Shown here: positions 10,139 through 46,357 of the stretch, one piece after another
Layout of the letters: each line of letters opens with the position of its first letter
Position numbering within the stretch: the stretch's first letter is position 1
Assembly (NCBI GenBank): GCA_025916675.1
Contig: CP098402.1
Location: forward strand, 2,351,205-2,415,204
Length of the DNA stretch: 64,000 nucleotides
Source: Phycisphaera sp.
Lineage (GTDB): Bacteria; Planctomycetota; Phycisphaerae; Phycisphaerales; UBA1924
Direction: 5' to 3'
Program-made: the position numbers and the translations under genes
Notes under the pieces: generated by a model
Database searches by the model: none
What the model was told of the DNA's origin: nothing
Seen by the model: only the letters and a program-made list of their open reading frames with translations

Positions 10139-10282
10139 GGCGTGTCCTCGCGGGGTCTGTTCGGATGCTCGTGGGTGTCCAACGGGCAGCATACCAGAAA
10201 GGCCGGCTTTTGCAAAGGGATTTTGGTGGGCGCGGGCGGATCAGAGCCAGGGTCTCCGGCCCCGAGTCGGACCGTGCCACCT

Positions 10283-10618
10283 TCATTGGGCCTCGAAGTA
10301 CGACAGGCCGATCACCGGCGGCTGGTCCATCTCCAACCGGCGCCAGTTGACGAACGCCGCGCCGTCCACCATCGCGCGGAACATCTCGGGTGACCGACGC
10401 GACCACGCGGCGGCGTGATCGATGTGCAGCGTGAGGACCTCAGGCGGCTCCACGTGGACGGTTGTCATGCCATCGGCGGGCTCGTCCAGGCTGGTCAGGC
10501 AATCGATCCATGCGGCCATGTTGCGTCCGTAGAAGCCCGGGAACCCCAGCAGTTCGGCGAACACGTTGTGGAACGAGTTCCAGTCGGTGATGCGGTCGGC
10601 ATCGAGTCGGAGCACCAT
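10283..10618 (-). CDS. Barstar-family protein (ribonuclease inhibitor-like)
   Basis: The 111-residue protein matches the barstar family in length and in its signature: a helix with FHNVFAELLGFPGFYG, then RNMAAWIDCLTSL, a beta strand, and a hydrophobic C-terminal strand. Barstar binds and blocks the secreted ribonuclease barnase in Bacillus; many distant homologues are orphans or immunity proteins. The start at ATG 10618 is chosen because the longer frame upstream runs into the 21-bp repeat tract. No barnase-like or polymorphic toxin gene is visible on either side. Its partner is therefore unknown. Confidence 0.8.
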   Translation of the reverse strand: MVLRLDADRITDWNSFHNVFAELLGFPGFYGRNMAAWIDCLTSLDEPADGMTTVHVEPPEVLTLHIDHAAAWSRRSPEMFRAMVDGAAFVNWRRLEMDQPPVIGLSYFEAQ

Positions 10619-10841
10619 CGCCGCCGTTCCTCCCCGCCCCAGACAACCAGGGCGAGCGTCGCTTCCCGATCGGACCCCATCGGTGGCGCCCAGGGGGACA
10701 ATGTACCCCACGAGCGACGCCAGAACGAGTGCGAGGGCGTCTGGCCCAGACGGCCGGGACCGCCCGAGGGCCACGACGAGAGCCCCAAAACCCCCATCCC
10801 ACGCCCGAAGAGCCCCTCCCCGTACATCCTGAACCGGTCCC

Positions 10842-11010
10842 AACGCGTCCTGGCCCCCTGGAAACGCTGTCCCGACCCCCGGGACAGCGTTCCCGACCTC
10901 CGAGGACGCGTCCGGCCGCCCCAAGAACGCGTCCGCACCCCCCATCGACGCGTCCGCGCGGGCCGGCGACGCATTCTCGCGCTCGCTCGGCGCATCCGCT
11001 CAAGCCGGCC
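10842..11010. repeat. Degenerate 21-bp tandem repeat, eight units
   Basis: The core GCGTCC or GCATCC recurs at exactly 21-base spacing, with the first core base at 10845, 10866 (variant), 10887, 10908, 10929, 10950, 10971 and 10992. Flanking bases are C-rich (CCCCC or CCGGC) in most units. Weaker copies can be seen upstream at 10803 and 10824. The period of seven codons gives heptapeptide-looking translations in all frames, but there is no start, ribosome-binding site or conserved product that would make it a gene. Confidence 0.8.
10863..10891. repeat. Perfect inverted repeat inside the 21-bp tract
   Basis: Arms of 12 bp (AACGCTGTCCCG at 10863-10874 and CGGGACAGCGTT at 10880-10891) flank a 5-base C-rich loop. 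No T-run follows on either strand, so it is not a standard terminator. It arises where units two and three of the tandem array meet in mirrored form. Confidence 0.75.
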
Positions 11011-11092
11011 CCGGATCGTGCCGACCATGGAACAGGCCGCCCGCATCGGGCCGGGCGGCGGTCGGGTGTCACCGTGCGGCGGAGCTTCGGCA

Positions 11093-11791
11093 ATGGCCAG
11101 GCGGGCGAAGAAGGGCGAGGCGGCGTTCCTCTTGCAATGCCGCATGCTGGCCGATCGCTGGAACGCCATCGACCCCGCGGACATCGGCATGACGCCACAG
11201 ACCGTGGGGGCCTTCGACGAGAAGCAGGCCGGGGCCCGTGACGCCGCCCAGGCGGTGCGGCGGGCCCAAGCGGCGCTCGACGCGGCGATGCACGACAAGC
11301 GCACCGCGGTCGCGGAGCTGCGCGCGAGCTTCGGCGCCGCGACGGGCACCATCGACGCCTACGCCAAGACCACTGGTGACCCCGATGTGTACGCCACCGC
11401 TCTCATCGCGCCGCCCGAGAAGCCCGGCGCGCGGCCCGCCCCGCCCACGCCGCAGCTCGAGCGCGTGCGCACGCTGGCGTACGGCCCCATCGAGCTGCGC
11501 TTCACGCCCTGCGGCGAGCGCGTCTTCTACGACATCCAGCGGAGCGTGGTCCCGCTCGAAGGGCCGCGGACGCCCTGGGAGCACGTCACCAGCACGGGCC
11601 ACCAGCGCGTGCGCGACCGCAGGGTGCCGCGGGGCGTCGCCACCGTGCTCTACCGCGTGCGGGCGCACCGGACCTCGGGCCGCGCGAGCGCCTGGAGCAA
11701 CCCGGTCACCGTCGAGTTTGGCTGCCGGGCGGGCGAGGGGATCGGTGCGGTGCCGATGCCCCGCGCGTCGTCGGGACGCGGGGCGGCATAA
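11093..11791 (+). CDS. Hypothetical protein with coiled-coil-like middle and beta-rich C-terminus
   Basis: The 232-residue protein starts with basic residues, with no signal peptide. Residues about 40-90 are Ala/Gln/Arg/Glu-rich and likely a long helix. The second half has the pattern of a fibronectin-type or Ig-like strand module (RTLAYGPIELRF, VPRGVATVLYRVRAHRTSG, SAWSNPVTVEF), where the alternating hydrophobics and the closing RTSGRASAWSNPV are typical of a FnIII F-G strand pair. I do not recognise a specific family. The start at 11093 is the first ATG after the repeat tract. Confidence 0.6.
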   Translation: MARRAKKGEAAFLLQCRMLADRWNAIDPADIGMTPQTVGAFDEKQAGARDAAQAVRRAQAALDAAMHDKRTAVAELRASFGAATGTIDAYAKTTGDPDVYATALIAPPEKPGARPAPPTPQLERVRTLAYGPIELRFTPCGERVFYDIQRSVVPLEGPRTPWEHVTSTGHQRVRDRRVPRGVATVLYRVRAHRTSGRASAWSNPVTVEFGCRAGEGIGAVPMPRASSGRGAA

Positions 11792-11869
11792 AGCCGCGTC
11801 CACGCCGAAACGCCCACCATCGCCATCCCGTATCCTCACGCGGCGGCACGGCCTGCCGGAGGAGAGACC

Positions 11870-13987
11870 ATGCGTACGAATCTCACAAGCCGCCCGGCGG
11901 CGGCCCTGATCGGTCTCAATCTGCTTCTGGGGTCCGCCACCCCGCCCGCCGCGGCCCAGGACACCCGCAGCGCCCTGTGCCAGGCGGGGGCCTACGTCGA
12001 AGCGATCCTCGTCCCACCCACGCCCGTTGCCGAGCTCGTCCGCGACGGCCGGTACCTGCTCGCGCCCGGCGAGGACTGGCGCGTCATCGACGCCAGCGAC
12101 CCGACCGACCTGCGGCTGGTCGCCAACCTCGACCTGCCCTGGCCGTACAAGGGCGCGAGTGTCGTCGGCCAGACGGCGTGGTCCTACCACGACCGGCTCG
12201 TCGTTTCGATCGACCTGACCGACCCGACCAGCCCCGCCGAGATCGCCGAGCACCGCACCACCGCCCGCATCACCAACCTAGCCCAGGCCGCCCCCTCGGG
12301 GAGCACCGCCGCGGCCGTGCTGGCGGTGGCCTCCGACCAGCAGCGCGTGGAGCTGTACGACGCCACCGACCCGACCGCGCTGCCGCTGCTGGGCGACGTT
12401 GAGCTGCCCGGCGCGTTCCTGCTCGCCGCGGCCGGCGACCTGCTGCACGTCCTGACCACCGACGGCGTGCTCGAGATCCTAAATATCGCCGATCCGACTG
12501 GCCCGCGACCGCTCGCCTCGCTGCCGTTCGGGGCGCAAGCGCGCACCATCGAGGTGCACGGCACCACCGTGTACATCGGCTGTGACGACCCGGGCCTGCT
12601 GGTGGTCGACGCGAGCGATCCAACAAGCCCGGAGATCGTCGGCACGCTCGACGCACCCGACTGCCGCTCGATCGTGCGGCGCGGCGGCACGCTGCTGATC
12701 GAGTCGGCCGAGCCCGGCCAGTTGCCCGACGGCCGCCGCGCGCTGCGCGTGCTCGACGCGGGCGACCCGGCCGACCTGCGCACGCTCCGCGCGTACACCT
12801 CGGCCGGCTCGGGCGGCCCGGTGCTGATCGGCCAGTACGCCGTCCTGACCGGCCGCGGGCTGGCCACCCTTGATCTCTCCGACTCGGGGGTCGGCTCGGA
12901 GCGCTCGATCGCCACGACCACGCGCGGGCCGGTGGCGCGCACGCTGGTCGCCTCGGGCTCGTACCTCTACGCCAGCGTGACCGGCGACCCCCCGGGCATC
13001 CTGGTGGTCGACGCGACCGATCCCGCCGCCGCCGAGTTCGTGCGCGACATACCTATGGACGACGCGGCGGGCGCGATGGCCGCCGACGACGACACGCTCG
13101 CGCTCGGCCTGCCCGACCGCCTGGAGCTGTGGAGCCTGGCCGACCGCGCCAACCCGGTGCTCGCCTCGTCGCTGATGACCGGCGACGAGGTCACCGCCTT
13201 CGCAATCGACGGCGACCGGCTGTATGCGGCGGTCCGATGCACGGGCCGCATCGCGATCCTGGACATCGCCGACCCCGCCGCCCCTCGCGTGCTGGGCCAG
13301 GTCATCGACCCGGGCTGCCCCGAAGTCATGGCCGCCTCGGGCGACCTGCTGGCCATGCACACGCGGACCGACCGCGAGATCGTCGTCTTCGACGTCTCGA
13401 ACCCCGCCACGCCCATTGAGCTGGCTCGGTACCCCACCGCCGCCGTGGCCGGGGGCATGGTGCTGTCGGGCGACCTGCTCTACGCGGTCGTGCAGTTGCA
13501 GATCGACGTCATCGACCTCTCCGATCCCACCGCACCGGTGGTCATCGGCCAGAGCGAGATGCTGACCGCCAACGACCACCTGCTGTCGCGCCGCGGCGAC
13601 GTGCTGATCAGCCACGACCGGCTCGACCGCCGCCTGCAGTTCTGGTCCATCGCCGACCCCGCCCAGCCGGTCTACGCCGGCGCGATCCACCAGCCCAACA
13701 CCGTCGGCGTGGCCTGGATCGGCGATGGGGCTGGTGGCGGCGAGGGCGACACGTTCGCCCTGCTCGAAACGACGTTCCACGAGACGGTCCGGCTCCACGA
13801 CTTCTCGCCGTGCGTGCGCTGCCCGGCCGACCTGGGCGGCGACGGCCGGCTGAACGTCTTCGACTTCCTCGAATTCATCAACCGTTTCAACCGCGGCGAC
13901 CCGAGCGCCGACTACGACGACAGCGGCGACGCAAACCTGAACGACTACCTTCGATACCAGACGTTGTTCGATCAGGGCTGCCTGTAG
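11870..13987 (+). CDS. Secreted LVIVD-type beta-propeller protein with dockerin-like tail
   Basis: The 705-residue protein has a signal peptide (residues 1-30, ending PPAAAQ). The body consists of about a dozen repeats of roughly 42 residues with the core VVDASDPTSPEIVGT or ILDIADPAAPRVLGQ. This is the LVIVD pattern of surface beta-propellers in bacteria and archaea. The last 55 residues start with CVRCPADLGGDG, carry FDFLEFINRF and LNDYLRYQTLFDQGC, and match the tails of three other proteins here, though more divergent. The ATG follows GGAGGAGAG by four bases. It is probably an exported, surface-displayed binding protein; ligand unknown. Confidence 0.85.
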   Translation: MRTNLTSRPAAALIGLNLLLGSATPPAAAQDTRSALCQAGAYVEAILVPPTPVAELVRDGRYLLAPGEDWRVIDASDPTDLRLVANLDLPWPYKGASVVGQTAWSYHDRLVVSIDLTDPTSPAEIAEHRTTARITNLAQAAPSGSTAAAVLAVASDQQRVELYDATDPTALPLLGDVELPGAFLLAAAGDLLHVLTTDGVLEILNIADPTGPRPLASLPFGAQARTIEVHGTTVYIGCDDPGLLVVDASDPTSPEIVGTLDAPDCRSIVRRGGTLLIESAEPGQLPDGRRALRVLDAGDPADLRTLRAYTSAGSGGPVLIGQYAVLTGRGLATLDLSDSGVGSERSIATTTRGPVARTLVASGSYLYASVTGDPPGILVVDATDPAAAEFVRDIPMDDAAGAMAADDDTLALGLPDRLELWSLADRANPVLASSLMTGDEVTAFAIDGDRLYAAVRCTGRIAILDIADPAAPRVLGQVIDPGCPEVMAASGDLLAMHTRTDREIVVFDVSNPATPIELARYPTAAVAGGMVLSGDLLYAVVQLQIDVIDLSDPTAPVVIGQSEMLTANDHLLSRRGDVLISHDRLDRRLQFWSIADPAQPVYAGAIHQPNTVGVAWIGDGAGGGEGDTFALLETTFHETVRLHDFSPCVRCPADLGGDGRLNVFDFLEFINRFNRGDPSADYDDSGDANLNDYLRYQTLFDQGCL

Positions 13988-13999
13988 GTCGGCGGCCCA

Positions 14000-14467
14000 T
14001 CACCCATCTCGCAGCGAGAGGCCGAGCCCCTCGAACACGACACGAAGCTCGATCCCCGTCGAGAACAGGAAGCGATGCTCGAAGGCCCCCTCGGCCAGGT
14101 GCGCTTCCCAGTAGCCCAGGTCGCCGTAGCCGGTGGGGCCGGGCAGGGCGGGGGCGTCGCTCTGCGTGCTGTGGAAGGAGCGCACGCCGGTGTAGCCAAG
14201 CGTGAACCGGCGGGCGCCGCCGCTCCCATCATCGCCGTCGAGCACCAGCGTGAGCGTGTGTGCCGCCGCGTCAATGCCCAGCGAGACGAGCCGGGCGTCG
14301 TGGATCGACACGCCTTCGTCCGGCTCACCCTCCAGCCGCAGCACGTCGGCCGGCAAGCGGTCGCGAATCGTGTCGAGGTGGGCTCGGTAGGCGTTGGAGG
14401 CATCGTTGGGGTTTGGGCCATTCGGGTTCTGCCCGCCCCACCACCAGCCGAAGGTGAAGAACTTCAA
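14000..14467 (-). CDS. Hypothetical protein, second of a two-gene unit
   Basis: The 155-residue protein begins MKFFTFGWWWGGQ and is followed by an Asn/Pro-rich turn and a soluble alpha/beta-looking sequence with aromatic pairs (GDLGYWEAHLAEGAFEHRFLFS). It has no signal peptide or membrane segment. It overlaps the upstream gene by the four bases TCAT/ATGA at 14464-14467, so both are read from one transcript. I do not recognise it. Small paired unknown proteins of this kind sometimes act as immunity or contact-system proteins, but nothing here proves that. Confidence 0.6.
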   Translation of the reverse strand: MKFFTFGWWWGGQNPNGPNPNDASNAYRAHLDTIRDRLPADVLRLEGEPDEGVSIHDARLVSLGIDAAAHTLTLVLDGDDGSGGARRFTLGYTGVRSFHSTQSDAPALPGPTGYGDLGYWEAHLAEGAFEHRFLFSTGIELRVVFEGLGLSLRDG

Positions 14468-14988
14468 GACCCATCTCCGAGCAGCCGCCGCCTCAGCTCG
14501 TCGGTGAGGTCGAACCCCGCCGCGTCATCCGTGTAGCAACTCCCATCGTCGCAGGCCCATACCAGCCGCGTGCCATCGGGCGAGAGCCTCAGGGCCCAGA
14601 CGTACTCGCCCTTGGACCGGTAGCCCAGTTCCTCGGCGTTCGAGCGGACCAGCGCCGCCCGGTCGGTGGGCTGACGCTGCAACTCCTCGGCGATCACGCG
14701 CGTGAGCATCTCCAAGAAGCCCTCGGGCGACGTGGTCGACGGAGCTTGATTCGCCCGATGCTGCGCCCGCGCGAATGCGGGCGGATAGCGACGCACCGAC
14801 TCGAGCAGGGCCGACAGCTCGGCGTCGGCGGCGAACGGACGCAGGGGTTCGGGATCTTCGCACGAGACATCGACCACCGCGATGGCGTGGCGCAGCGAGA
14901 ACATGACGAGGAAGCCATCGTCCTCGTTCGGCAATTGGGGCCACCAGACGTCCTGGACGTAGTGGATCCATGGAACGACGACGTGCAT
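14464..14988 (-). CDS. Hypothetical soluble protein, first of a two-gene unit
   Basis: A protein of 174 residues from the ATG at 14988; in-frame alternatives are an ATG at 15018 and a TTG further upstream, and none has a clear ribosome-binding site. The sequence is Glu/Arg/Ala-rich with aromatic N-terminal strands (MHVVVPWIHYVQDVWWP). It has no signal peptide, membrane segment or known catalytic motif. It runs directly into the downstream unknown gene with a four-base overlap. Function unknown. Confidence 0.6.
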   Translation of the reverse strand: MHVVVPWIHYVQDVWWPQLPNEDDGFLVMFSLRHAIAVVDVSCEDPEPLRPFAADAELSALLESVRRYPPAFARAQHRANQAPSTTSPEGFLEMLTRVIAEELQRQPTDRAALVRSNAEELGYRSKGEYVWALRLSPDGTRLVWACDDGSCYTDDAAGFDLTDELRRRLLGDGS

Positions 14989-15339
14989 GCGAGAAGTGTA
15001 CGGAGTGAGCCGGCTCATACTCACACCCCACAACACCCAACACGCCCAGCTTCACCCACCTGGGCGTCCGAAAGCCGGGAAGGTTCTCCAACACTGCGTT
15101 CCAGGCTTCGGACGGGACCCGATGGGCCCCTCGGGGACGGCGCAGCCGGGATGGCCACGCCCTCTCTCTCCCGATCGTGCGCGGGCGGCGTTGAGCGACG
15201 CGGCCCGCGGATCGTCCGGATCCTCTTCGGTTCGCGCAGCCACGACCCACCAACACAACATCAGAATCGCGCACAAGGTTACCTAACTTCCGCACTGCGC
15301 GGCCCAGTTTGTCCAAACCCGGCCGGTACACTTGGCCCG
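14989..15339. other. Intergenic region without supported gene
   Basis: This 351-bp gap lies between divergent genes. A short minus-strand frame near 15052-15276 has no ribosome-binding site or recognisable product and is not called. The central part is GC-rich with several short palindromes. Promoters for both flanking genes should lie here, but I see no consensus -35/-10 pair that I would defend. Confidence 0.5.
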
Positions 15340-17052
15340 ATGCCATCGCCCAACCCCGAACCTGCTCTTTCGGCCACCCCCCGCCGACACGACCTCGACG
15401 CCCTGCGCGCCATGGCCATGCTGCTGGGCATCGTCCTCCACGCCGCCCTCAGCTTCTTTGATACGCCAATCTGGCCGGTGCAAGACCGCAGCCGCGCGCC
15501 GGCGCTCGGCCTGGTCGTCATGGCCATCCACGGCTTCCGCATGCCGCTGTTCTTCCTGCTCAGCGGCTACTTCACCGCCATGCTGGCCCAGCGCCGTGGG
15601 CTGGCTGGCCTGCTCTCGCACCGTGCGAAGCGCATCGCGCTGCCGCTGGCGGTCGGCATGGTCACCGTCGTGCCGCTGGTGTGGGGCGTGTCGATCTGGG
15701 CCCAGTCGAGCGCCACGACGCCCACGAGCAAGACCGCAGAGGGCGCACCCGCCACTGATCTGGACATCTGGACCGCCGCCGCTGTCGGCAACATCGACGC
15801 CCTGCGCCGCCACCACGAGGACGGCTCCGATCCCAACGCGCTCGACCCGACCTATCGCATGAACCCGCTGGCCTGGGCGGTCGTCGGCGACCAGCCCGAC
15901 GCGGTGACCCACTTACTCGAAGCCGGGGCCGACCCCGCCGCGGCGTACGGCGACGGCAACACGCCGCTGCATACCGCCTGCTTCTTCGGCAGGGCCGACG
16001 CGGCAAAACGGCTCATCGACGCCGGCGCCCCCGTTAACGTGCGCAGCCCGGCAGGCGAGACCCCCGCCGACACGATGCGCCACGGCAAGGGCACGACCGA
16101 CTTCATCGCCGGCCTGCTGCGCATCTCGGTCGACTTCGAGCAGGTCCAGGCCGGCCGCGAGGAGATCCGGGCGATCCTGGCCGCGGGCCCGACGCCCGTC
16201 GACACCAGCCCGCCGCCAAACCAACTGATCCGCCTCGTGAAGGGCCTGCTGTTCGACTTCCCGGTGTTCCACCACCTGTGGTTCTTGTGGTTCCTGTGCT
16301 GGCTCGTGCCGGGGTATGCGCTTGTGGCCCTCTTGATTCGGCCATTCAAGGGCATCCGCCTGCCACGCGCGATCACCGTCTTCGCGTCTCCGCCCGCTTG
16401 CCTGCTCTGGCTCGTGCCGCTCACGATGCTCGCCCAGTGGCCCATGAACGCCGGCGGCACGCAGGTCGGCTTCGGCCCGGATACCTCGGCCGGGCTGCTG
16501 CCCATCCCCCGCGTGCTGGCGTACTACGCGATCTTCTTTGGCGCCGGCGCCATGCTCTACACCGCGCGCGGCGCGACCGCCCGCCTCGGCCGGGGCTGGT
16601 GGCTCACGCTCCCCCTGGCCATCGCCGTGCTCGTGCCAGCGATGTCGCTGTGCCTGAAGACCCCCTGGCCGCCGGCGCTCGCCCAGGCCCTGGCCGGGCA
16701 CGCGACGACCGTCCACGTCCTGGCGGTCGCTGGCCAATCGCTCTACGCATGGCTCATGATCTTCGGCCTCATCGGCCTGCTCGAGTGCGCCCTCAGCCGG
16801 GAACGGGTCGGCGTGACCGGGGGCGTGCGTTACCTGTCCGACGCGTCCTACTGGCTCTACGTCGCCCACCTGCCGCTCATCATCGCCGCCCAGATCCTGG
16901 TGCGCAACCTCGACCTGCCCGCGGCGGTCAAGCTGCCACTCATCGTGCTCATCACGACCGGAGTGCTGCTCGCGAGCTACCAGCTCATGGTGCGATACAC
17001 GGCGATCGGGCGGATGCTGAACGGGCCGCGGACGCGTCGCACGGGGCCATAG
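15340..17052 (+). CDS. OpgC/acyltransferase-3 membrane protein with inserted ankyrin repeats
   Basis: A 570-residue protein. Residues 15-120 are the start of an acyltransferase-3 membrane domain: DLDALRAMAMLLGIVLHAA with the conserved His34, then FRMPLFFLLSGY. From about residue 140 to 245 there is a soluble block of about three ankyrin repeats (DLDIWTAAAVGNIDALRRH, NPLAWAVVGDQPDAVTHLL, GNTPLHTACFFGRADAAKRL). The membrane domain then resumes with HHLWFLWFL near residue 311 and continues through about eight more hydrophobic segments. HxxFLWFL is typical of OpgC/MdoC-type transferases that put acyl groups on periplasmic glucans. The insert sits between the first membrane segments and the rest, so it probably projects on one side as a protein-binding domain. 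Substrate not known. Confidence 0.8.
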   Translation: MPSPNPEPALSATPRRHDLDALRAMAMLLGIVLHAALSFFDTPIWPVQDRSRAPALGLVVMAIHGFRMPLFFLLSGYFTAMLAQRRGLAGLLSHRAKRIALPLAVGMVTVVPLVWGVSIWAQSSATTPTSKTAEGAPATDLDIWTAAAVGNIDALRRHHEDGSDPNALDPTYRMNPLAWAVVGDQPDAVTHLLEAGADPAAAYGDGNTPLHTACFFGRADAAKRLIDAGAPVNVRSPAGETPADTMRHGKGTTDFIAGLLRISVDFEQVQAGREEIRAILAAGPTPVDTSPPPNQLIRLVKGLLFDFPVFHHLWFLWFLCWLVPGYALVALLIRPFKGIRLPRAITVFASPPACLLWLVPLTMLAQWPMNAGGTQVGFGPDTSAGLLPIPRVLAYYAIFFGAGAMLYTARGATARLGRGWWLTLPLAIAVLVPAMSLCLKTPWPPALAQALAGHATTVHVLAVAGQSLYAWLMIFGLIGLLECALSRERVGVTGGVRYLSDASYWLYVAHLPLIIAAQILVRNLDLPAAVKLPLIVLITTGVLLASYQLMVRYTAIGRMLNGPRTRRTGP

Positions 17053-17069
17053 CCGCGTGCATCGATCGG

Positions 17070-17828
17070 CTATCGACCACCCTCGACCCGAACCCCACAC
17101 CCAAGCAGGGCATCCCGCACCGCCCCCGCCATCGCCAGCGCTCCCGGCGTGTCCCCATGCACGCACAGCGTGTCGAACCGCCCGCTCTGCACGAGCCGCA
17201 CCGCCTGCTCGGCGGCTTCCTGCGCATCGGCCAGCACCGCGCCGGGCTGGTCCCGGGGGATAAGCGCACCATCGGCGTACCCACGATCCGCGAACCCCTC
17301 GCGCGCCACGCGCAGGTCCATCTCCGACCACTGCCCGAATCCGGCCGTGTCTGGCAAACCAAAGAACACCAGGTCCGCGAACGGATCGCCCGTGACCTCG
17401 GCAACGGCATCGAGGCACCCGCGCGCCACGGCCTCGGCCGCCTCCGCGTCCGCCATCGCCCGGTGGTACAACGCCCCGTGCGGCTTGGCGTGCGAGAGCG
17501 AGAGCCCCGTCTCCGCCGCCACGCGCGCCAATCGCGCGACCTGCTCGCGGCACAACGCGTAGATGGCGCTGGAGTCCAGCCCCAGTTCGCGCCGCCCGAA
17601 TCCCTCGACATCCGCGTACCCCGGATGGGCCCCGAGCCCCGCACCCCGGTCGGCCGCCCGCCTCAGCACGCCGCGCATCAACTCGGGCGACCCCGCGTGC
17701 CCGCCGCAGGCGATGTTGACCGACGACACCACGCCGAGCAATTCGAGATCGCTCTCGAGCAGCTCATCAAGCTCGCCCGCGTCGGCGTTCAGGTCAATCG
17801 CGGGTCCAAGCAGGCTCGCATCGTCCAT
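17070..17828 (-). CDS. pxpA: 5-oxoprolinase subunit A (LamB/YcsF family)
   Basis: PxpA works with PxpB and PxpC to hydrolyse 5-oxoproline (pyroglutamate) to glutamate using ATP. The 252-residue protein has all family hallmarks: DLNADAGE near the N-terminus, NIACGGHAGSP, GAHPGYADVEGFGRR, SHAKPHGALYH and CVHGDTPGAL. The start is set at ATG 17828, four bases after the pxpC stop; an ATG at 17858 would give ten extra residues and overlap pxpC. It is the last gene of a pxpB-pxpC-pxpA operon. Confidence 0.92.
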   Translation of the reverse strand: MDDASLLGPAIDLNADAGELDELLESDLELLGVVSSVNIACGGHAGSPELMRGVLRRAADRGAGLGAHPGYADVEGFGRRELGLDSSAIYALCREQVARLARVAAETGLSLSHAKPHGALYHRAMADAEAAEAVARGCLDAVAEVTGDPFADLVFFGLPDTAGFGQWSEMDLRVAREGFADRGYADGALIPRDQPGAVLADAQEAAEQAVRLVQSGRFDTLCVHGDTPGALAMAGAVRDALLGCGVRVEGGR

Positions 17829-17832
17829 GCTG

Positions 17833-18717
17833 TCACTGTACGGGAGCGATCGCGGCATCGAGAGTCAAACGCTGCTGCACGAGCAGTTCGCGTGCGTCCT
17901 CCCGTCCCACAACTTCGAATCTCACCCACTGCCCGGGCACCAACTGCCCCACCGCCGGCAGGTCGGCAGCGATGACCGTGCCCACGGTCGCGTAGCCGCC
18001 GGTCGTCGGTCCATCGGGACCCAGGATCACCAGTTCGCCCGACGACGGTGCCTGGATGGTGCCGTGCATGACGCCCCGGCTGGGCCCGGTCTCGACGGCG
18101 TTCCCCTCGCCGGCGCGATCGAGGCGTATACCGACACGATCACCCTTCGGCGACACCCTCAACAGCCCGGCGGGCGGCTCGGCTTCGGCACCGTCGGCAA
18201 CCACCCGCAGCACACGACTCCTCGAAGCCAGCTCCAACATCGCGCGGACGTGCGAGGGAAGAGCGCTGGGCCCGCGCATCGCACCGCCAATCGGCAACTC
18301 ATCACCAGCCCCGAGCGACCGGCCTTGCAGCCCTCCAAATCCGGCGCTCGCGAGTGTCGACCGCGAATCCAGCACCATCGGCACATCCAAGCCACCCGCG
18401 ACCGCGAGATACGCCCGGCACAAGCCATCATCTGGGCCAAACTCGATCGACGCACCGGCTTCAAGTTCGATTGCCTCGAACGCCCGGCCCCCGGATGAGC
18501 AGACGACCGCGATGGATCGCATCGCCTCGACCCTCATCCGCCCCATCGCCAATTCGACGCCGGCCGCTCCATCGGCATTGCCCACGACCCGATTCGCTAC
18601 ACGCAACGAAAGTGGGTCAGCCGCGCCACTTGTCGGCACCCCCTCGTGCGCGTGTCCGAGCCGGCCCAGATCCTGCACGCTCGCCACGCCGCTGATCTCA
18701 ACCACGCGGAGGCTCAT
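17833..18717 (-). CDS. pxpC: 5-oxoprolinase subunit C (KipA-like)
   Basis: The 294-residue protein is the biotin-dependent-carboxylase-like domain partner of PxpB. Typical motifs are SVQDLGRLGHAHEGVPTSGA near the N-terminus, ELAMG, GLCRAYLAVAGG, and near the C-terminus SSGELVILGPDGPTTGGYATVG. PxpB and PxpC together form a unit that phosphorylates 5-oxoproline for opening by PxpA. The start ATG at 18717 overlaps the pxpB stop by four bases (ATGA), and the stop lies just before pxpA, showing tight co-translation. Confidence 0.92.
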   Translation of the reverse strand: MSLRVVEISGVASVQDLGRLGHAHEGVPTSGAADPLSLRVANRVVGNADGAAGVELAMGRMRVEAMRSIAVVCSSGGRAFEAIELEAGASIEFGPDDGLCRAYLAVAGGLDVPMVLDSRSTLASAGFGGLQGRSLGAGDELPIGGAMRGPSALPSHVRAMLELASRSRVLRVVADGAEAEPPAGLLRVSPKGDRVGIRLDRAGEGNAVETGPSRGVMHGTIQAPSSGELVILGPDGPTTGGYATVGTVIAADLPAVGQLVPGQWVRFEVVGREDARELLVQQRLTLDAAIAPVQ

Positions 18718-19355
18718 GCGTCGAACTCGCGGGCCGTAATCGACCTGAACCGCACGACGTCTCCCGCGCGCAAGAGGGCGGGCTCCTCGCGTTCCACGCC
18801 GAACATGACCGCCTTCGTGCGCCCGATGATGCGCCACCCGCCGGGGCCGGGCAGCCCGTACACGCCGCTGTACGGGCCCGCCACCCCCACACTCCCGGCC
18901 TCCAACCGCGTGCGTGGCGACGCCAGCCTCGGCACGTGCAATCGCTCGGGCAAGCCCGTGAGGTACCCAAACCCGGGCGCGAACCCGAGGAATGCCACCG
19001 TGAACTCCGTCGAGGTGTGCGCCTCGACAACCTCGTGCTCGGCCATCTCCGAGAGCCTGGCAACTTCCGCAAGATCCATCGCGTGCGGCGGCTCGTAGCA
19101 CACCGCGATCTCATGCACCCGGGGCTCGGGTGCAGGACGACCCTCAACACCTTTCAACTTCTGGGCGAGCTTGTCCGGCGTGACATCCCCCAACGGATCG
19201 ACCGTCAGGTACACCGCCCCTTCGGTCGGCACCACGTCACGGATCCCCGAGACGCCCCGCAACACTCCGGCGGCCGCGTGCGCGGGCATCGGACCGGACA
19301 CGCGCAGGCTGCGCTCGCTCGTCCATTGGATGTCGAAATCCCCTGGCCCGGCCAT
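18714..19355 (-). CDS. pxpB: 5-oxoprolinase subunit B (KipI-like)
   Basis: The 213-residue protein matches the PxpB/KipI family, with the segments HEIAVCYE, TVAFLGFAPGFGYLTGLP and SVGVAGPYSGVYGLPGPGGW, where the last includes the conserved Gly/Pro-rich active-site loop. In Bacillus, KipI also inhibits the sporulation kinase KinA, but oxoprolinase function is the more general role and the operon here supports it. The ATG at 19355 is preferred to a TTG two codons upstream. It is the first gene of the operon and has a 21-bp gap from the preceding minus-strand gene's end. Confidence 0.9.
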   Translation of the reverse strand: MAGPGDFDIQWTSERSLRVSGPMPAHAAAGVLRGVSGIRDVVPTEGAVYLTVDPLGDVTPDKLAQKLKGVEGRPAPEPRVHEIAVCYEPPHAMDLAEVARLSEMAEHEVVEAHTSTEFTVAFLGFAPGFGYLTGLPERLHVPRLASPRTRLEAGSVGVAGPYSGVYGLPGPGGWRIIGRTKAVMFGVEREEPALLRAGDVVRFRSITAREFDA

Positions 19356-19376
19356 GACCAAGAGTAGTAGCTCCGA

Positions 19377-20372
19377 TCACTGTGCCGTGGCGACCGCAGG
19401 CAGATAAGTAGGCCGTGTGTCGGCTCGCAGGGCGGCGGGGATCACGCGCCGGCGGAGCCGCTCGCGTTTACCCTTCTTGGTCGAGAGCTGGCCGTACTGC
19501 CTCATCCGCTCGACCACGGCCTTGCCGTCCAGCAGGCGGATCGACCCGTCGAAATCTTCGACCAGGGCGGTGCAGCTCTCGACCCAGTCTCCGCAGTTGT
19601 AGTACATCATGCCCTCGTGCCTGGCGTCGGGGCGGATCTCGGCCTTGTGGATGTGCCCGCACACCACGCCGTCGAAGCCCTTGCGCTTGGCCTCGTCGGT
19701 CAGGGCGTCCTCGAACTTGCTAATGTAGGTGCAGGCGCTCTTGACCTTGAGCTTCAGGAACTGGCTCAGGCTCCAGTAATTGAGGCCCAGCAGCTTGCGC
19801 ACGCGGTTGTAGTGCCGGTTGAGCCGCAGCAGCAGCTCGTAGCTGGCCGACCCCAGCATCGAAAGCGTCTTGGCGTGCTTGACCACCATGTCGAACTGGT
19901 CGCCGTGGCTGATGTACAACCGTCGCCCGTCGGCGGTCAGGTGCTCGGCGTCGAGCATCAACTCGACCCCACCAAAGTTCAGCCCGGCGTACTGCCGCGC
20001 CCCCTCGTCGTGGTTGCCCGGGATGTACACCACCCGCGTGCCCTTGCGCGCCATCTTCAGGATTCGGCCAATGACGCGGTTGTGCTTGCCCGGCCAGTAC
20101 CACTTGCTCTTCAGGCGCCACATGTCGATGACGTCGCCCACGAGATACAGCGTCTCGCAGCGCACGCACTTGAGAAAGGCGCTGAGCTCCTTGGCCTGGC
20201 AGCCGTTGCTGCCCAGATGCAGGTCGCTTAGGAAGATGGTGCGGTACCGGAGGTCGAGGCGTTCGGTCCCGGTCACCGGGTCGCGTACCACCGCCGGCTC
20301 GGTCCAGACCGCCCCGGCGGGATTGGCCCCGGGCGGAGTTCCAATGTCACAAGTGTCTCGCGGTTCCTCCAT
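19377..20372 (-). CDS. Metallophosphoesterase (LpxH/YbbF-like)
   Basis: The 331-residue protein has the full calcineurin-like metal motif set: FLSDLHLG (DxH), LVGDVIDMW (GD), IPGNHDE (GNHD), ISHGDQFD and VCGHIHKAE (GHxH). Together these bind two metal ions. The overall order and spacing resemble UDP-2,3-diacylglucosamine hydrolase (LpxH), which removes UMP in lipid A synthesis, but the protein is longer and has an extra helical region (ASYELLLRLNRHYNRVRKLL). It may instead act on another phosphodiester. ATG 20372 is chosen over an upstream TTG. It lies 78 bases downstream of the GH57 gene end. Confidence 0.82.
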   Translation of the reverse strand: MEEPRDTCDIGTPPGANPAGAVWTEPAVVRDPVTGTERLDLRYRTIFLSDLHLGSNGCQAKELSAFLKCVRCETLYLVGDVIDMWRLKSKWYWPGKHNRVIGRILKMARKGTRVVYIPGNHDEGARQYAGLNFGGVELMLDAEHLTADGRRLYISHGDQFDMVVKHAKTLSMLGSASYELLLRLNRHYNRVRKLLGLNYWSLSQFLKLKVKSACTYISKFEDALTDEAKRKGFDGVVCGHIHKAEIRPDARHEGMMYYNCGDWVESCTALVEDFDGSIRLLDGKAVVERMRQYGQLSTKKGKRERLRRRVIPAALRADTRPTYLPAVATAQ

Positions 20373-38841: not shown

Positions 38842-38906
38842 CGCCGCCGTCCTTTCACGTCCCGCCGCCACGAAACGCCAGCGGGGCGGGCATGGTACGC
38901 TTACGC

Positions 38907-39518
38907 ATGATCGAACCACGCAAGACCGTTGTCCTGTGCCTTGGTATCGCCGGGCTGATTGCTACCGGCGGCTGCGCCTGCCAACGGTGCGCCACCACCG
39001 AAGAACCGGCCGCCACGCCCGACAGCATGGCCGCCGCCGAGCCCGAGCCCATCGAGGTCCACCAGTGGGACCGCTGGCGCATCGCCGGCCAGCCCATGCC
39101 GGGCGACTACGAGCGGCAAGCCCGGGCAGGCACCACGCTGGTGGTCAACCTCCGCACCCAGCCCGAGGTCGATCGCCTCGAATTCGACCCGCGCGAAGAG
39201 GTCGAGAGCCGCGGCATGGCCTACGTCGCGATCCCGATGGGCGGCGACAACGGATACACGCCCGACCAACTCGATGCGTTTACCAATGCCATCGATGGCG
39301 TCGAGGGGCCGATCATGATCCACTGCGCTTCGGGTGGCCGCGCCCGCATGTTGTGGGCCGCCTACTTCGTCGAGGAAGAAGGCATCCCCCTCAACGAGGC
39401 GATGCTCCGGATGGAAGAGGTCGGCGGCCGACCAGCCGTGATGGAACGCTTGCTCGGGCATCGCCTCCACTACACGCTGGGAGAGCCCCTGCCCGAGCCG
39501 GAAGCCGACCAGCCGTGA
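38907..39518 (+). CDS. DUF442/Blh-like phosphatase-type lipoprotein
   Basis: The 203-residue protein has a lipoprotein-type N-terminus ([10 protein letters not shown] then LIATGGCAC with the probable acyl Cys23, although the lipobox is not canonical). The rest matches DUF442/Blh-type domains: [21 protein letters not shown], then the phosphate-loop-like [16 protein letters not shown]. The CxxGxR signature (C-A-S-G-G-R) is of the short CX4R type found in this family, not the CX5R of classical tyrosine phosphatases. An earlier ATG at 38892 is possible. Role unknown; a two-gene unit with the downstream [2Fe-2S] protein is likely. Confidence 0.78.
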
Positions 39519-39811: not shown

Positions 39812-39835
39812 AACATTCCTGAAGGCATAGGAGCG

Positions 39836-39875
39836 CAAAAAAGGCGACCCGACTCCACGAGACGCCGGGTCGCCT
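39836..39875 (-). terminator. Rho-independent terminator, minus strand (distal)
   Basis: On the minus strand a 10-bp stem (AGGCGACCCG and CGGGTCGCCT; plus-strand arms at 39842-39851 and 39866-39875) is followed by a run of T residues (plus-strand A-run at 39836-39842). It faces the minus-strand gene ending at 40063, about 190 bases downstream of it. Confidence 0.7.
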
Positions 39876-39969
39876 GTTGCGAGGAATGCATCCCGGAACT
39901 TTGCCCGGAACGAGTGCAGACTAACCGAAACCACGGGGTCTTGTAAAGGCCTTTTTGCTCATTCCATAC

Positions 39970-40006
39970 AAAAAACTCACCCAACACCCGATTGAGGTGG
40001 GGTGAG
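39970..40006 (-). terminator. Rho-independent terminator, minus strand (proximal)
   Basis: On the minus strand the hairpin CTCACCC with GGGTGAG (plus-strand arms 39976-39982 and 40000-40006) runs into a TTTTTT tract (plus-strand A-run at 39970-39975). It lies 57 bases downstream of the 40063 gene end, so it is the first of two tandem minus-strand terminators. Confidence 0.75.
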
Positions 40007-40062
40007 CCTGTGTTTTCGCGCAAATCTTGCCGCTGCAAGGCGACAATAATAAGTAAAATCCC

Positions 40063-41001
40063 TTATTCTTCGATTGTCCGAAGCCCCATACCGATCTCGA
40101 CCAGCCGCTCCTTCACCTCCGTAAGTGAAGTGGCGCCGAAGTTCTTCACACCCATCAGCTCGGCCTCGGTGTGGCTCACCAGGTCGCCCAGGCTCTGGAT
40201 GTTCAGCAATTGCAGCGCCCGGCGGGCACGCACGCTGAGGGCCAGATCCGTCACGGGCTTGTTCAGCATGGCCTCCTGGCTGGTGCCGCGGAAGCGGTCG
40301 AGGGCGGTCCGGCGGCCCGAGCGGTGGCCATCGTCGACGCCCTGGCCCAGGGCCATGTTCTTGCCAGACAGCATCTTCTTGATCTCGTCGAGGCTCGAGT
40401 CCCCGAAGTTCTTGTAGCTCATCAGCTCGGCCTCGGTCGTCCGCAGCAGGTCGCCCAGCGTGCGGATGTTCATCCGCTTCAGGGCCGTCCGCGTGCGCAC
40501 CGACAGATCGAAGTCGGTGACCGCCATCTCCATCTCCTGGCGACGCTTGATGTGGTCGCTCTCGGAGTCCTCGATGGTGCCCTCGTCGCGGCTGGCCACC
40601 ACGTCCTTCATGTAAAGCCGGGCCCGGGGGTGGTTCGGGTCGGTATCGAGCACCTGCCGCAGGCACCGCTCGGCCCGGTTGTACTCCTGGCGGTCCTCGT
40701 ACAGCACGGCCAGGTTCAGCAGGGCGTTCACCGGAGCGGGCGTCTTGTCGCACAGCCGCTCGTAGAGACTGATAGCCTCGTCCTCCTCGCCGGCCAGGTC
40801 GAGGTGGTAGGCAAGCTGGAAGGCCGCCTCGTCGTGCCCCGCGTCGGCCTGCACGGCCTTTCGGAGCGTGCCGATGGCATCCAGCCGATCGCCCGCGGCG
40901 GCCTGCTCGCGGGCCTCCCCGAGCAGCCGGCCGGCCAGGGCCGAGTCTCCACCAGAACCAATGACCATATCGAGCGCACTAGGGGACGAGCTGGAACTCA
41001 A
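40063..41001 (-). CDS. TPR protein with two RNA polymerase alpha-CTD-like domains
   Basis: The 312-residue protein starts at a TTG at 41001, chosen because a perfect GGAGGT lies six bases upstream; the first ATG (40968) has no such site. Residues 1-25 are a Ser-rich leader. Residues about 25-130 are three to four TPR helices pairs. Residues 161-215 and 249-306 are two copies of an alpha-CTD-like domain: VTDFDLSVRTRTALKRMNIRTLGDLL and VTDLALSVRARRALQLLNIQSLGDLV, then AELMxxKNFGxxSLxEIK. The Arg equivalent to E. coli alpha R265 is kept in both copies; N268 and K298 equivalents differ. It likely binds DNA or other transcription proteins; tandem minus-strand terminators follow. Confidence 0.88.
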   Translation of the reverse strand: MSSSSSPSALDMVIGSGGDSALAGRLLGEAREQAAAGDRLDAIGTLRKAVQADAGHDEAAFQLAYHLDLAGEEDEAISLYERLCDKTPAPVNALLNLAVLYEDRQEYNRAERCLRQVLDTDPNHPRARLYMKDVVASRDEGTIEDSESDHIKRRQEMEMAVTDFDLSVRTRTALKRMNIRTLGDLLRTTEAELMSYKNFGDSSLDEIKKMLSGKNMALGQGVDDGHRSGRRTALDRFRGTSQEAMLNKPVTDLALSVRARRALQLLNIQSLGDLVSHTEAELMGVKNFGATSLTEVKERLVEIGMGLRTIEE

Positions 41002-41125
41002 GGCGAGACCTCCGGGCTTTGGCAAATCGAGGGGATTGCGGGATCACGATTCTAGGCCGAGGTGACTCCCGCCGGGTAATGGACCCTATTCCCGACCGCT
41101 CCCGGCGGACGAAGCCCAAGTGCCC

Positions 41126-41186: not shown

Positions 41187-41918
41187 ATGATCCCACACCG
41201 CCGCCGCATTGGCACCATGGCACTGGGCATACTCGCTATCGCGGATCTCGCGACCGGCCAGGACTTTGAGGCTAGCTACATCCTCGACGTTCTCCGGCAC
41301 CCAGATGCGGCAGATCCCATCGCTATCGTGCGAATCAACTCATGGACCGGCATCGGCTGCTCGGAGGGCGAACCGCTCGTGTACGGCGGTTGGTTCGAGA
41401 TGCAGTTGAGCCATCCCGTGGTCGACTACGCGTCGGCGATAATCGTGGATTGTGCACTGCCGTCTTTCGGTTTTAATGACGCGTGCGATTCGGGTGGACC
41501 GGCACGAGCATACGGTGTTCGCATCGTAGATTTCGCGTACATCCAAGGCGGCGGCGGCATCTTCCTATTCGACAACCCGCTCCACATCATGGACGTGCAG
41601 ATCACGATCGATGATCTCACGCCACGAAACCTCGAGCTCGAAACCATCTCGCTGCGTCACGTTTCGGGCTGTCTCGGCGGCAGCGGTGGCGTGTTTGCCG
41701 AATCTCCGGCTGTGACGAAAGGCTCAACCATCATCCGCGTCAACGGCGGCTGCCCCGCCGACTTCGACGGCGACGGCTCGCTCTCCATCTTCGACTTCCT
41801 CGCCTTCCAGAACGCCTTCGCCGCCGGCGACCTCGCGGCCGACCTCGACGGCGACGGCGTGCTCACGCTGTTCGACTTCCTGGCCTTCCAGAACGAGTTC
41901 GACGCGGGGTGTGAGTAG
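41187..41918 (+). CDS. Secreted protein with dockerin-like tail
   Basis: The 243-residue protein has an N-terminal signal (RRRIGTMALGILAIADLATGQ). The middle part (residues 25-185) is beta-rich, with two Cys (C57, C90 region) but no motif I recognise. The C-terminal 53 residues begin CPADFDGDG, contain FDFLAFQNAF and FDFLAFQNEFDAGC, and match the tails of the proteins at 7535, 11870 and 49851. At DNA level this tail is nearly identical to that of 49851. The start at 41187 follows GGAGGGCACATCG. Export is likely; function unknown. Confidence 0.8.
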   Translation: MIPHRRRIGTMALGILAIADLATGQDFEASYILDVLRHPDAADPIAIVRINSWTGIGCSEGEPLVYGGWFEMQLSHPVVDYASAIIVDCALPSFGFNDACDSGGPARAYGVRIVDFAYIQGGGGIFLFDNPLHIMDVQITIDDLTPRNLELETISLRHVSGCLGGSGGVFAESPAVTKGSTIIRVNGGCPADFDGDGSLSIFDFLAFQNAFAAGDLAADLDGDGVLTLFDFLAFQNEFDAGCE

Positions 41919-43499: not shown

Positions 43500-44516
43500 C
43501 TACGTGGGGGAGGTCGAACGTGCGGCGGCGAGCCGTGCGGCCAGCGCCAGGGCGGCGGCCATCGATCCCGCGTCGGCCACGCCCCGCCCGGCGATGCCGA
43601 AGGCGGTCCCGTGGTCGGGGCTGGTCCGGGGCACGCCGAGCCCCAAGGTTATGTTCACCGCGCTGTCGAAGGCGACCAATTTCAGCGGTGCCAGGGCCTG
43701 ATCGTGGAACATCGCCACCACGATGTCGAATTTCCCGGCGGGCCGGCGGGCGTCGCGGAAGACCGTGTCGCCCGGCAAGGGCCCCGCAACGTCAATACCG
43801 CTTGCCCGGGCCGCTTCGACAGCGGGCGCGATGATCGCGTCGTCCTCGGTACCCAGAGCCCCGCCCTCGCCCGCGTGTGGGTTCACCCCCGCAACAGCAA
43901 CCCTGGGATCCTCGATGCCCAGATCGCGGCACAGCCCGGCGGCCAGTTCGATGACCTCGCCCACGCGCTCGGTCGTGATGGCCGAGGCCACCTCCCGTAG
44001 CGGGATGTGGGCCGTCACCAGCGCCACGAGCAGGTTCGGGCTCACGAACGCCATCGCGTGGCGGCCGGCCTCCAGCCGCTCGGCCAGCAGTTCTGTGTGG
44101 CCCAGGTGCCGCCCGTGCCCCGCCGCCACCCAGGCCGCCTTGCTGATGGGGCCGGTGCAGATGGCGTGGGCCTTCGCCGGGTGGCCCTCGGGCAGCCTGG
44201 TCGCGTCGATGGCGTGCAGCACCTGGGCGTGGCTGACGGCCCCACCTCGGGGCGTCGAGTCGTGATCGAACGGCTGGCCGTCGTCGTCACCGAGCTGGCA
44301 CACGACCACGGGCTCGCTCTGGTCAATGTCCGCCAATTCGTGGACCACGGGCCACTCGTGCCGACCGAGCGCCCGCGATGGGCCGTAGATGACGACCCGC
44401 GCCCCCTCGGCCGCCCCACCTCGCACGGCCGCGCACAGCACCTCGGGCCCGATGCCGCCGGGGTCGCCCATCGAAACGGCGATGCATGGGAGGTTGGCGG
44501 GATCGCTGGTGGTCAC
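43500..44516 (-). CDS. pdxA: 4-hydroxythreonine-4-phosphate dehydrogenase
   Basis: PdxA oxidises 4-phosphohydroxy-threonine in pyridoxal phosphate synthesis. The 338-residue protein has SMGDPGGIGPEVL near the N-terminus, HLGHTELLAERL with the metal-binding His, TAHIPLREV and FHDQALAPLKLVAFD with further ligand His. A GTG at 44516 is preferred to an upstream TTG, which would add 18 residues not expected in the family. It is read after the gene at 42050 would end, i.e. upstream of the MATE gene. Confidence 0.9.
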   Translation of the reverse strand: MTTSDPANLPCIAVSMGDPGGIGPEVLCAAVRGGAAEGARVVIYGPSRALGRHEWPVVHELADIDQSEPVVVCQLGDDDGQPFDHDSTPRGGAVSHAQVLHAIDATRLPEGHPAKAHAICTGPISKAAWVAAGHGRHLGHTELLAERLEAGRHAMAFVSPNLLVALVTAHIPLREVASAITTERVGEVIELAAGLCRDLGIEDPRVAVAGVNPHAGEGGALGTEDDAIIAPAVEAARASGIDVAGPLPGDTVFRDARRPAGKFDIVVAMFHDQALAPLKLVAFDSAVNITLGLGVPRTSPDHGTAFGIAGRGVADAGSMAAALALAARLAAARSTSPT

Positions 44517-44617
44517 CGGCGATGGTAGTGACCGACCAACGAGCCCAATCGCCGGGAAACCATGAACCAAAACTCATCCCAAACCCGGGCCAACCGGGCC
44601 GCCGGCTACCATTCTCG

Positions 44618-46357
44618 ATGGATTACACCAAGTTCTCGACCACACCCACCCGCGTCCTGACGCTCTTGGCGATCGCCGGAACCACACTCGTCGGCGGCTG
44701 CGGCAACTCGAACCCGCAAGCGCCCTCGGGCGATTCCTCTACCACGGCCCAGCCCGAGCAGCCCCAAGACGAGCAGCCCGCGGCTGGAACGCCCGATGGG
44801 CAGCCATCCGCTGAGCAGCCCGGTGGCGAGGAGCCCGCGGCCGAATCACCCGGCGAGCCTGCGGACGAAACCCCAGCCCAGCCGGTGGCCTCCGAGGGCT
44901 TCACCGAGCTTGGCATCACCGACACCGTCGTTGGTGAAGGCCAGGCCGTCGAGCCGGGCGCGACCGTGACCGTCCACTACCGGGGCACCTTCCGCGAGTC
45001 GGGCGAAGAGTTCGATTCGAGCTATAGCCGGGGCGAACCCTCGGAGTTCCCCCTCACCGGCGTCATCGCCGGCTTCTCCGAGGGCCTGCTAGGGATGAAA
45101 GTTGGCGGCAAACGCCGCATCGAGATCCCCTGGGCCATGGCCTACGGCGCCCAGGGCCGCCCGCCGGTGATCCCGCCGCGCTCGGACCTTGTCTTCGAGC
45201 TCGAGCTGGTCGACGTGCGCAACCCCCAGCCGCCCGAGAGGCCCGAATTGGCCAGCGAGTTCGCGGGCGAGCCCCAGGATCTTGGCGACGGCCTGGTCGT
45301 GCGCGATATCGAGGTGGGCCAGGGCCAGGAAGAGCTCAAGCCCGGCGCGACCGCCATCGTCCACTACCGGGGTGTGCTGGCCGACACCAGCGAGCAGTTC
45401 GACGCCAGCTACGACCGCGGCGAACCCGCGAAGTTCAAGCTCGATCCCGGCGCGCTCATCGAGGGCTTCTCGCGAGGACTCCTGGGCATGAAGGCCGGCG
45501 GCAAACGCCGCATCGAGATCCCCGCGGCCCTGGGCTATGGCGCGCAGGGCAGCCCACCCAAGATCCCCGGCAACGCCGACCTGGTCTTCGAGGTCGAGGT
45601 CCTGAGCTTCATCAACCAGCGCGAGCTCAGCACCGAGTGGATCAGCGAAGAAACGCGCGACAACGGCCTGGTCGTCCGCATTGTCGAGCAAGGCGACCCC
45701 GACGCCGAGCCCCTGCCCGAGGGGTCGGTCGTCACGCTCCACACGCTGGGCGTGCTCGAGGACGGCACCCGCTTCGATTCGAGCTTCGAGCAGGGCGCCC
45801 CCATCAAGCTCCCCATGGAGTTCACCATCGAGGGCTGGCGCGAGGGCATGGTCGGCATGCTGCCGGGCGAGACACGCCAGATCGTGATACCGCCCGCCTT
45901 GGCTTTCGGCGAGGAGGGCCGGCCGCCCGTCGTGCCGCCCAATGCCACGCTGACCTTCGAGATCGAACTCGTCTCGTGGGAGCCCCCGCGTGAATTCGCA
46001 ACCGAGTTCGCGGGCGAACCCACCGAACTCGAAGAGGGCATCACCATCCGCGACGTCGCCGTCGGCGCGGGCCCCGAGGCGACCGCCGGCCAGCAGGCCT
46101 TCGTCTACATGATGGCCAAGCTGCCCGACGGCGAGGTCGTCGCCAACACGTTCGCCACCGACGACCTGCAGCCGATCCCCCTCGACGGGCAGCCGCCCCT
46201 GCCCGGCCTGCGCAAGGCCATCGTGGGCATGAAGGTCGGCGGCGTGCGCCGTATCGAACTCTCCGCCGAGCAGGGCTTCGGCGAAGCGGGCAACCCGCCC
46301 ATGGTGCCGCCGGGCAGCAGCCTGGTGTTCGAGATCGAACTGGCCGCCGTGCAATAA
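44618..46357 (+). CDS. Lipoprotein with four tandem FKBP domains
   Basis: The 579-residue protein has a lipobox LVGGC with Cys28, then an Asp/Glu/Pro/Gln-rich spacer of about 65 residues. From about residue 95 four FKBP-type peptidyl-prolyl isomerase domains follow, each with VTVHYRG, FDSSYxRGEP, GFSEGLLGMKVGGKRRIEIP and PPxxxLVFEIELV elements. Domains one and two are clear; domain three has VVTLHTLGVLEDG; domain four (AFVYMMAKLPDGEVV) is degraded and lacks key aromatic residues of the active site. The protein is anchored in the envelope and likely folds exported proteins. It is followed by a single-domain FKBP gene. Confidence 0.88.
   Translation: MDYTKFSTTPTRVLTLLAIAGTTLVGGCGNSNPQAPSGDSSTTAQPEQPQDEQPAAGTPDGQPSAEQPGGEEPAAESPGEPADETPAQPVASEGFTELGITDTVVGEGQAVEPGATVTVHYRGTFRESGEEFDSSYSRGEPSEFPLTGVIAGFSEGLLGMKVGGKRRIEIPWAMAYGAQGRPPVIPPRSDLVFELELVDVRNPQPPERPELASEFAGEPQDLGDGLVVRDIEVGQGQEELKPGATAIVHYRGVLADTSEQFDASYDRGEPAKFKLDPGALIEGFSRGLLGMKAGGKRRIEIPAALGYGAQGSPPKIPGNADLVFEVEVLSFINQRELSTEWISEETRDNGLVVRIVEQGDPDAEPLPEGSVVTLHTLGVLEDGTRFDSSFEQGAPIKLPMEFTIEGWREGMVGMLPGETRQIVIPPALAFGEEGRPPVVPPNATLTFEIELVSWEPPREFATEFAGEPTELEEGITIRDVAVGAGPEATAGQQAFVYMMAKLPDGEVVANTFATDDLQPIPLDGQPPLPGLRKAIVGMKVGGVRRIELSAEQGFGEAGNPPMVPPGSSLVFEIELAAVQ

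Follow-up and report, generated by a model that had tools for sequence, protein, structure and literature searches.

What does a planctomycete do with a protein that joins TPR repeats to two copies of a domain resembling the C-terminal domain (CTD) of RNA polymerase alpha? This question is raised by a gene on the minus strand of a 64,000-nucleotide stretch of Phycisphaera sp. DNA (the window), in which an earlier note had read TPR repeats followed by two alpha-CTD-like domains, and its open reading frame and Pfam matches confirm that layout at the place claimed. The coding sequence (40063-41001, minus strand; 312 aa) was delimited by the open reading frame and a conserved start, a TTG that follows a GGAGGT ribosome-binding site (41008-41013, minus strand) at a distance of 6 nt. 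The TTG headed by a perfect GGAGGT, also pointed out by the note, holds up across the genus, since start position and GGAGGT are kept in all six same-genus genomes compared, with TTG in five and GTG in one.

Domain layout and predicted fold

The TPR domain occupies residues about 20-140 (40582-40944; minus strand, like the following features) and was delimited by Pfam, AlphaFold and VIA-align, with PF14559, PF13428, PF07719 and other TPR models scoring above cut-off. It is followed by a first alpha-CTD copy (CTD1, residues 152-219; 40345-40548), a linker predicted to be helical (40279-40344; helix 220-237 in the AlphaFold model) and a second copy (CTD2, residues about 242-308; 40078-40278), both copies resting on Pfam scores and on fold. 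The Pfam model PF03118 (RNA_pol_A_CTD; cut-off 23.8 bits) matched the protein in two stretches with 128 bits together, and each copy exceeded the cut-off alone, CTD1 with 70.6 and CTD2 with 64.5 bits; the CTD of the genome's own RpoA scored 65.7 bits. In the source genome, a single contig of 3.6 Mb, PF03118 matches three domains at E<=0.001, namely CTD1, CTD2 and that of RpoA. Among the matches listed, the nearest named relatives are Phycisphaeraceae and Phycisphaerales MAGs, with up to 90% identity.

An ordinary second RpoA was ruled out, since Pfam finds neither RNA_pol_L nor RNA_pol_A_bac in the protein, which scored 124.5 bits against the RpoA equivalog cut-off of 302. The BREX kinase PglW, whose model is that of a large kinase, shows a weak resemblance to the protein that is confined to the CTDs (NCBIfam 29.5 bits, PADLOC 31.2 bits); with 29.5 bits against an equivalog cut-off of 990, PglW or another defence-system gene was rejected as well.

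Structure prediction gave the alpha-CTD (helix-hairpin-helix-like) fold for both tandem domains. A full-length AlphaFold run on 77 aligned sequences, comprising the window protein and 76 of the best 80 of at least 588 loci (L109, L143 and L175 were left out as of odd length or cut, and L167 as having no usable frame), produced a model with pLDDT 86.8 and a pTM of 0.46, at which the mutual placement of the domains is uncertain; its TPR blocks reached pLDDT 90-98. Modelled alone, the CTD half gave pLDDT 87.8 and pTM 0.71 in the best of five models, which span 71.8 to 87.8, and matched alpha-CTDs at 0.6-0.7 Å over 64-65 columns. Its closest solved match was an alpha-CTD on AT-rich DNA (0.7 Å, 65 columns, 43% identity), and the titles of all 50 solved structures in its match list name an alpha-CTD or RNA polymerase. 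The TPR part matched TPR domains with VIA-align Z up to 17.5 (rmsd 1.8 over 126 residues), the matches listed for the whole protein were mostly TPR structures, and a family profile hit solved alpha-CTDs through CTD1 and likewise through CTD2, at E of about 1e-21. The PF03118 scores and the fold search together rule out a chance TPR or helix-hairpin-helix (HhH) likeness. The protein thus shares with the alpha-CTD of RpoA the predicted fold, residues R265, G296, S299 and E302, and 43-44% identity to the closest solved alpha-CTDs, but unlike RpoA it lacks the alpha N-terminal domains, carries TPRs instead and has two CTD copies.

Distribution and constraint in Planctomycetota

A distribution limited to one genome, which would have made the protein an oddity and which the earlier note had named, beside a missing alpha-CTD fold, as refuting its reading, was ruled out by searches in order, class and phylum samples, which overlap and in which a few matches are partial. 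At order level, relatives at E 3.7e-86 or better were found in 20 of 21 genomes, the own genome included. Matches at E<=1e-15, a cut-off that excludes the RpoA matches seen near 1e-11 in the order-level search, were present in 114 of 120 genomes of the class (102 of the 105 good ones) and in 278 of 294 genomes of the phylum (153 of the 155 good ones), so that the protein is phylum-wide. With the best 7 candidates per genome scored, 274 of the 278 phylum genomes had one match and four (G132, G211, G217 and G288) had two; single copy is therefore not strict. Frames outside the window's order are mostly about 430-530 aa among those listed, with extra N-terminal TPR-like sequence by eye, and the window's order has the shorter form of the protein.

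Three or more PF03118 matches, a count that alone does not prove the architecture, were found in 190 of the 197 genomes that are at least 95% complete. Among the remaining seven, G106 and G501 carry the protein in full, and four members of one family (G214, G314, G354 and G386; loci L230-L233; 99-100% complete) carry the TPRs and CTD1 only, their frame ending soon after CTD1. In G505 (96% complete) the sole PF03118 match is RpoA-like and the TPR-CTD protein was not found, nor was it found in G007 (92% complete). When the 23 genomes without a relative were searched again using the family profile, the matches listed included none spanning TPRs and CTDs; they consisted of short hits to the CTD, some of them in RpoA, and of hits to generic TPRs. 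G265 holds an edge fragment, made up of two pieces within a single frame of 153 aa where a contig begins, and G339 is perhaps a similar case.

A broad contig search yielded at least 588 confirmed stretches, the best 80 of which were inspected; by title, these belong to Phycisphaerae or other planctomycetes except for four, one of them an 'uncultured bacterium' (L128). The records titled Cyanobacteria, Leptolyngbya and Dehalococcoidia (L107, L130 and L132) hold a Phycisphaerales-type gene of about 58-63% identity; these titles look wrong, and we take the records to be mislabelled.

A mobile gene was rejected too, as tblastn against plasmids and phages found no such architecture: 29 plasmid records and 6 phage records were hit, none covering 80% of the query, and in the 15 plasmid rows inspected every annotated feature under the match was an alpha subunit. 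The PHROGs search with the window protein gave no match. Alpha-CTDs outside this architecture were seen as well. On a 101 kb contig listed as viral, an ORF of 143 aa (L258:2773-3201, plus strand) holds one alpha-CTD (PF03118 67.5 bits) that resembles CTD2 by eye, with a match of equal identity in a 205-kb contig (L259). A second contig, also listed as viral, codes for a helix-turn-helix protein whose C-terminal part is an alpha-CTD (L261:2353-3258, plus strand). Lone alpha-CTD matches in short frames of 91 and 85 aa (G431:C22:42100-42279 and G296:C152:6901-7107) suggest that some planctomycete genomes may encode stand-alone alpha-CTD proteins.

Constraint was compared in 28 genomes, hand-picked among those with listed coordinates of both genes and with near copies from the own genus omitted. 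Mean pairwise identity was 70% for CTD1, the most conserved part of the family, whose CTD2 reached 50% and TPRs 39%; in RpoA it was 56% for the CTD and 58% for the N-terminal part. Of the 378 genome pairs, 342 had CTD1 better conserved than the RpoA CTD and 8 were ties. In a tree of 84 domains, built on only 63 columns and with a bootstrap that had not settled, CTD1, CTD2 and the phylum's own RpoA CTD formed separate groups (97%, 89% and 100% of bootstrap trees, respectively). Since these groups are separate, the tandem form is most likely older than the radiation of the sampled phylum, and the domain would have a long-kept job of its own. Most strongly, the data point to a core protein of the whole phylum in which CTD1 performs a constrained alpha-CTD function of its own.

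DNA-contact residues

Residues were counted in 81 distinct relatives of 94 extracted (duplicates removed, near copies included), with positions given in E. coli alpha numbering by alignment. The TPR part contains an asparagine, N96, that is invariant in the 81 relatives and presumably lies in the TPR peptide groove. In the alignment, R265 is kept in the window protein as R169 in CTD1 and R258 in CTD2, as the earlier note had held. N268 is changed to T172 and R261, and K298 to S202 and T291. The further claim of the note, that N268 and K298 differ, is therefore right for the window protein but does not stand as a peculiarity of these CTDs when they are compared with true RpoA and with more divergent relatives: position 298 is T in the RpoA of 30 out of 30 sampled genomes (31 rows, the own genome counted twice), which makes the absence of K298 a phylum trait, and CTD1 retains N268 in 98% of 54 more divergent relatives.

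Across the 81 relatives, CTD1 keeps R265 in 99%, N268 in 83%, C269 in 86%, G296 in 100%, S299 in 96% and E302 in 100%, as well as D259 (95%) and E261 (84%), two residues that face sigma in E. coli alpha. CTD2 keeps R265 in 100%, S299 in 98% and E302 in 99%; its residue 268 is K in 62% and R in 31%. Compared with the RpoA CTD, CTD1 typically has F260, R267, M273 and an acidic residue at 297, the last being E or D in 28 of 28 genomes, where RpoA has K or R in 26 and E in two; CTD2 differs mostly by its K/R268. T at position 268 of CTD1 was seen in 13 sequences, the window's included, all of them in the window's family (at least 58% identity to the window), three other members of which lack it. 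In E. coli alpha, R265 and N268 bind DNA and N268T abolishes PBAD activity (PMC11434276). Judged by its residues, CTD1 appears able to bind DNA across most of the phylum, and its competence is in doubt within part of the window's own family.

Gene surroundings and possible role in transcription

In the window the gene stands alone, with a divergent ORF upstream (41187-41918, plus strand), which has no Pfam match at 1e-5 and ends by eye in two dockerin-like DxDGDG repeats, and two terminator-like hairpins with T6 downstream on the minus strand. The nearer hairpin (39962-40015) has -21.4 kcal/mol and z -2.84, with 3 of 200 shuffles as good, and the farther one (39830-39885) has -32.6 kcal/mol and z -5.85, with none of 200 as good. 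The two minus-strand terminators of the earlier note thus stand as T-run hairpins by the shuffle test, whereas a consensus scan reported no minus-strand terminator downstream of the gene, in our reading because it tolerates a narrower range of loops and bulges. About 1.1 kb downstream of the TPR-CTD gene lies the start of a class II D/K/N-type tRNA synthetase gene (asnS by eye). The window also encodes a protein with four FKBP stretches (44486-46357, plus strand) and one with a beta-lactamase-hydrolase-like phosphatase domain (38892-39518, plus strand).

The 'well-controlled single gene' of the note describes the window but not most of the loci sampled. In a sample of 41 loci (40 fetched and the window), counting same-strand matches that start at most 600 nt downstream and allowing intervening ORFs, 30 had ruvA (14), spoIID (12) or tgt (4); the other 11 included the window and L074. 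The latter shows the fullest order, TPR-CTD, ruvC, ruvA, ruvB, queH, spoIID, tgt, yajC and secDF (Pfam-checked), the cluster (9976-19420) being co-directional behind the TPR-CTD gene with ruvC preceding ruvA; CTD2 of this locus looks degenerate by eye. The recurring neighbour families are recombination, tRNA-modification and secretion genes, and no RNA polymerase genes were among the neighbour families tabulated.

The alpha dimer of RNA polymerase has two flexibly tethered CTDs, which reach A/T-rich minor grooves upstream of promoters and are also offered to sigma or activators. The analysis shows the architecture, a predicted fold, phylum-wide conservation and conserved DNA-contact residues; DNA binding, partner binding and the direction of the effect are inferred. 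Our favoured reading, to which we give slightly less than an even chance, is that of a phylum-wide transcription factor whose paired alpha-CTDs, free of the polymerase, would bind promoter DNA rich in A/T, with the TPRs holding a partner. In this protein a single chain carries both CTDs; CTD1, aided by the basic face of CTD2, would bind UP-element-like DNA and possibly sigma region 4, and the TPR groove would hold a peptide of the polymerase, a sigma factor or a regulator. The outcome, over many genes, may be that promoter complexes are strengthened or that the protein competes with alpha for shared sites. A broad role with a protein-binding TPR part fits the conservation, and the window protein is best explained as the form that a core protein of Planctomycetota takes in Phycisphaerales. 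Against promoter binding, the acid at 297 of CTD1 could weaken contact with DNA, although two of the 28 RpoA have E there too, and the T that CTD1 often has at 268 in the window's family corresponds to the N268T substitution with which E. coli alpha loses PBAD activity. The tabulated neighbour families, with no RNA polymerase gene among them, also speak against this reading. The absence of CTD2 from four genomes of one family indicates that the pair is not always needed.

The same acid at 297, together with the replacement of N268 in CTD2 and in 13 CTD1 of the window's family and the largely kept D259 and E261, would suit a decoy or anti-activator whose CTDs do not bind DNA and sequester activators or sigma region 4 under control of the TPRs; we consider this unlikely, since both copies retain R265, G296, S299 and E302 at 96-100% and position 268 has turned basic in CTD2, which a loss of DNA binding would not predict. 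Improbable to a similar degree is a reading in which the planctomycete RNA polymerase has the protein as an additional stable subunit or as a general factor, tethered by its TPRs and adding CTDs: the protein is near-universal, mostly one per genome, and its CTD1 is conserved more than core polymerase alpha, but the neighbourhoods tabulated revealed no linkage to rpo genes, and it was not found in G505 and G007.

The downstream genes raise yet another reading, in which the CTDs are generic HhH modules of a recombination or repair accessory acting beside RuvA, RuvB and RuvC, with the TPRs binding a repair protein. RuvA itself has an HhH domain, ruvA follows closely in 14 of the 41 loci and L074 keeps ruvC-ruvA-ruvB behind the gene; yet the cluster is mixed, spoIID or tgt takes that place in other loci, and the gene is kept where none of the three lies within 600 nt. 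Moreover, the CTDs are far nearer to the alpha-CTD, at 128 bits, than to the generic HhH model HHH_5 (17.9 bits, below its cut-off of 27), and the residues that face sigma in E. coli alpha are kept, so that we regard this reading as quite improbable.

As for known systems, Francisella has two alpha subunits and so more than one kind of alpha-CTD per cell, but these are whole alpha subunits in the enzyme (PMC3294249), whereas the TPR-CTD protein lacks the assembly domains. Spx of B. subtilis likewise regulates via the alpha-CTD surface, but it acts by binding the alpha-CTD (PMC2801614), whereas our protein carries alpha-CTDs itself. No description of a TPR/alpha-CTD architecture was recognised by title or start of abstract in the literature covered, outside which lie most subscription papers and all of bioRxiv. 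The PVC signatures paper (PMC3444138) and the main text of an essential-gene survey of Planctopirus limnophila (PMC10632474) make no mention of rpoA, tetratricopeptide or TPR; the survey counts 108 phylum-specific essential proteins of unknown function.

The domains are known; their architecture and its conservation are apparently undescribed. Public databases, we presume, may already list such proteins under a TPR or alpha-CTD name. Planctomycete transcription is, to our knowledge, little studied, and the protein is probably a core yet unstudied part of it. It is conceivable, though we would rather doubt it, that the Planctomycetota polymerase uses this TPR protein as a general factor of the phylum, supplying extra alpha-CTDs in trans under tighter constraint than the alpha-CTD of the enzyme, upstream promoter recognition then being shared with RpoA. 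Near-universal in the genomes sampled, and with a CTD better conserved than that of the polymerase, the gene makes a strong candidate for a general regulator that has been overlooked; since the alpha-CTD residues have been mapped in E. coli, point changes offer a direct test of the protein.
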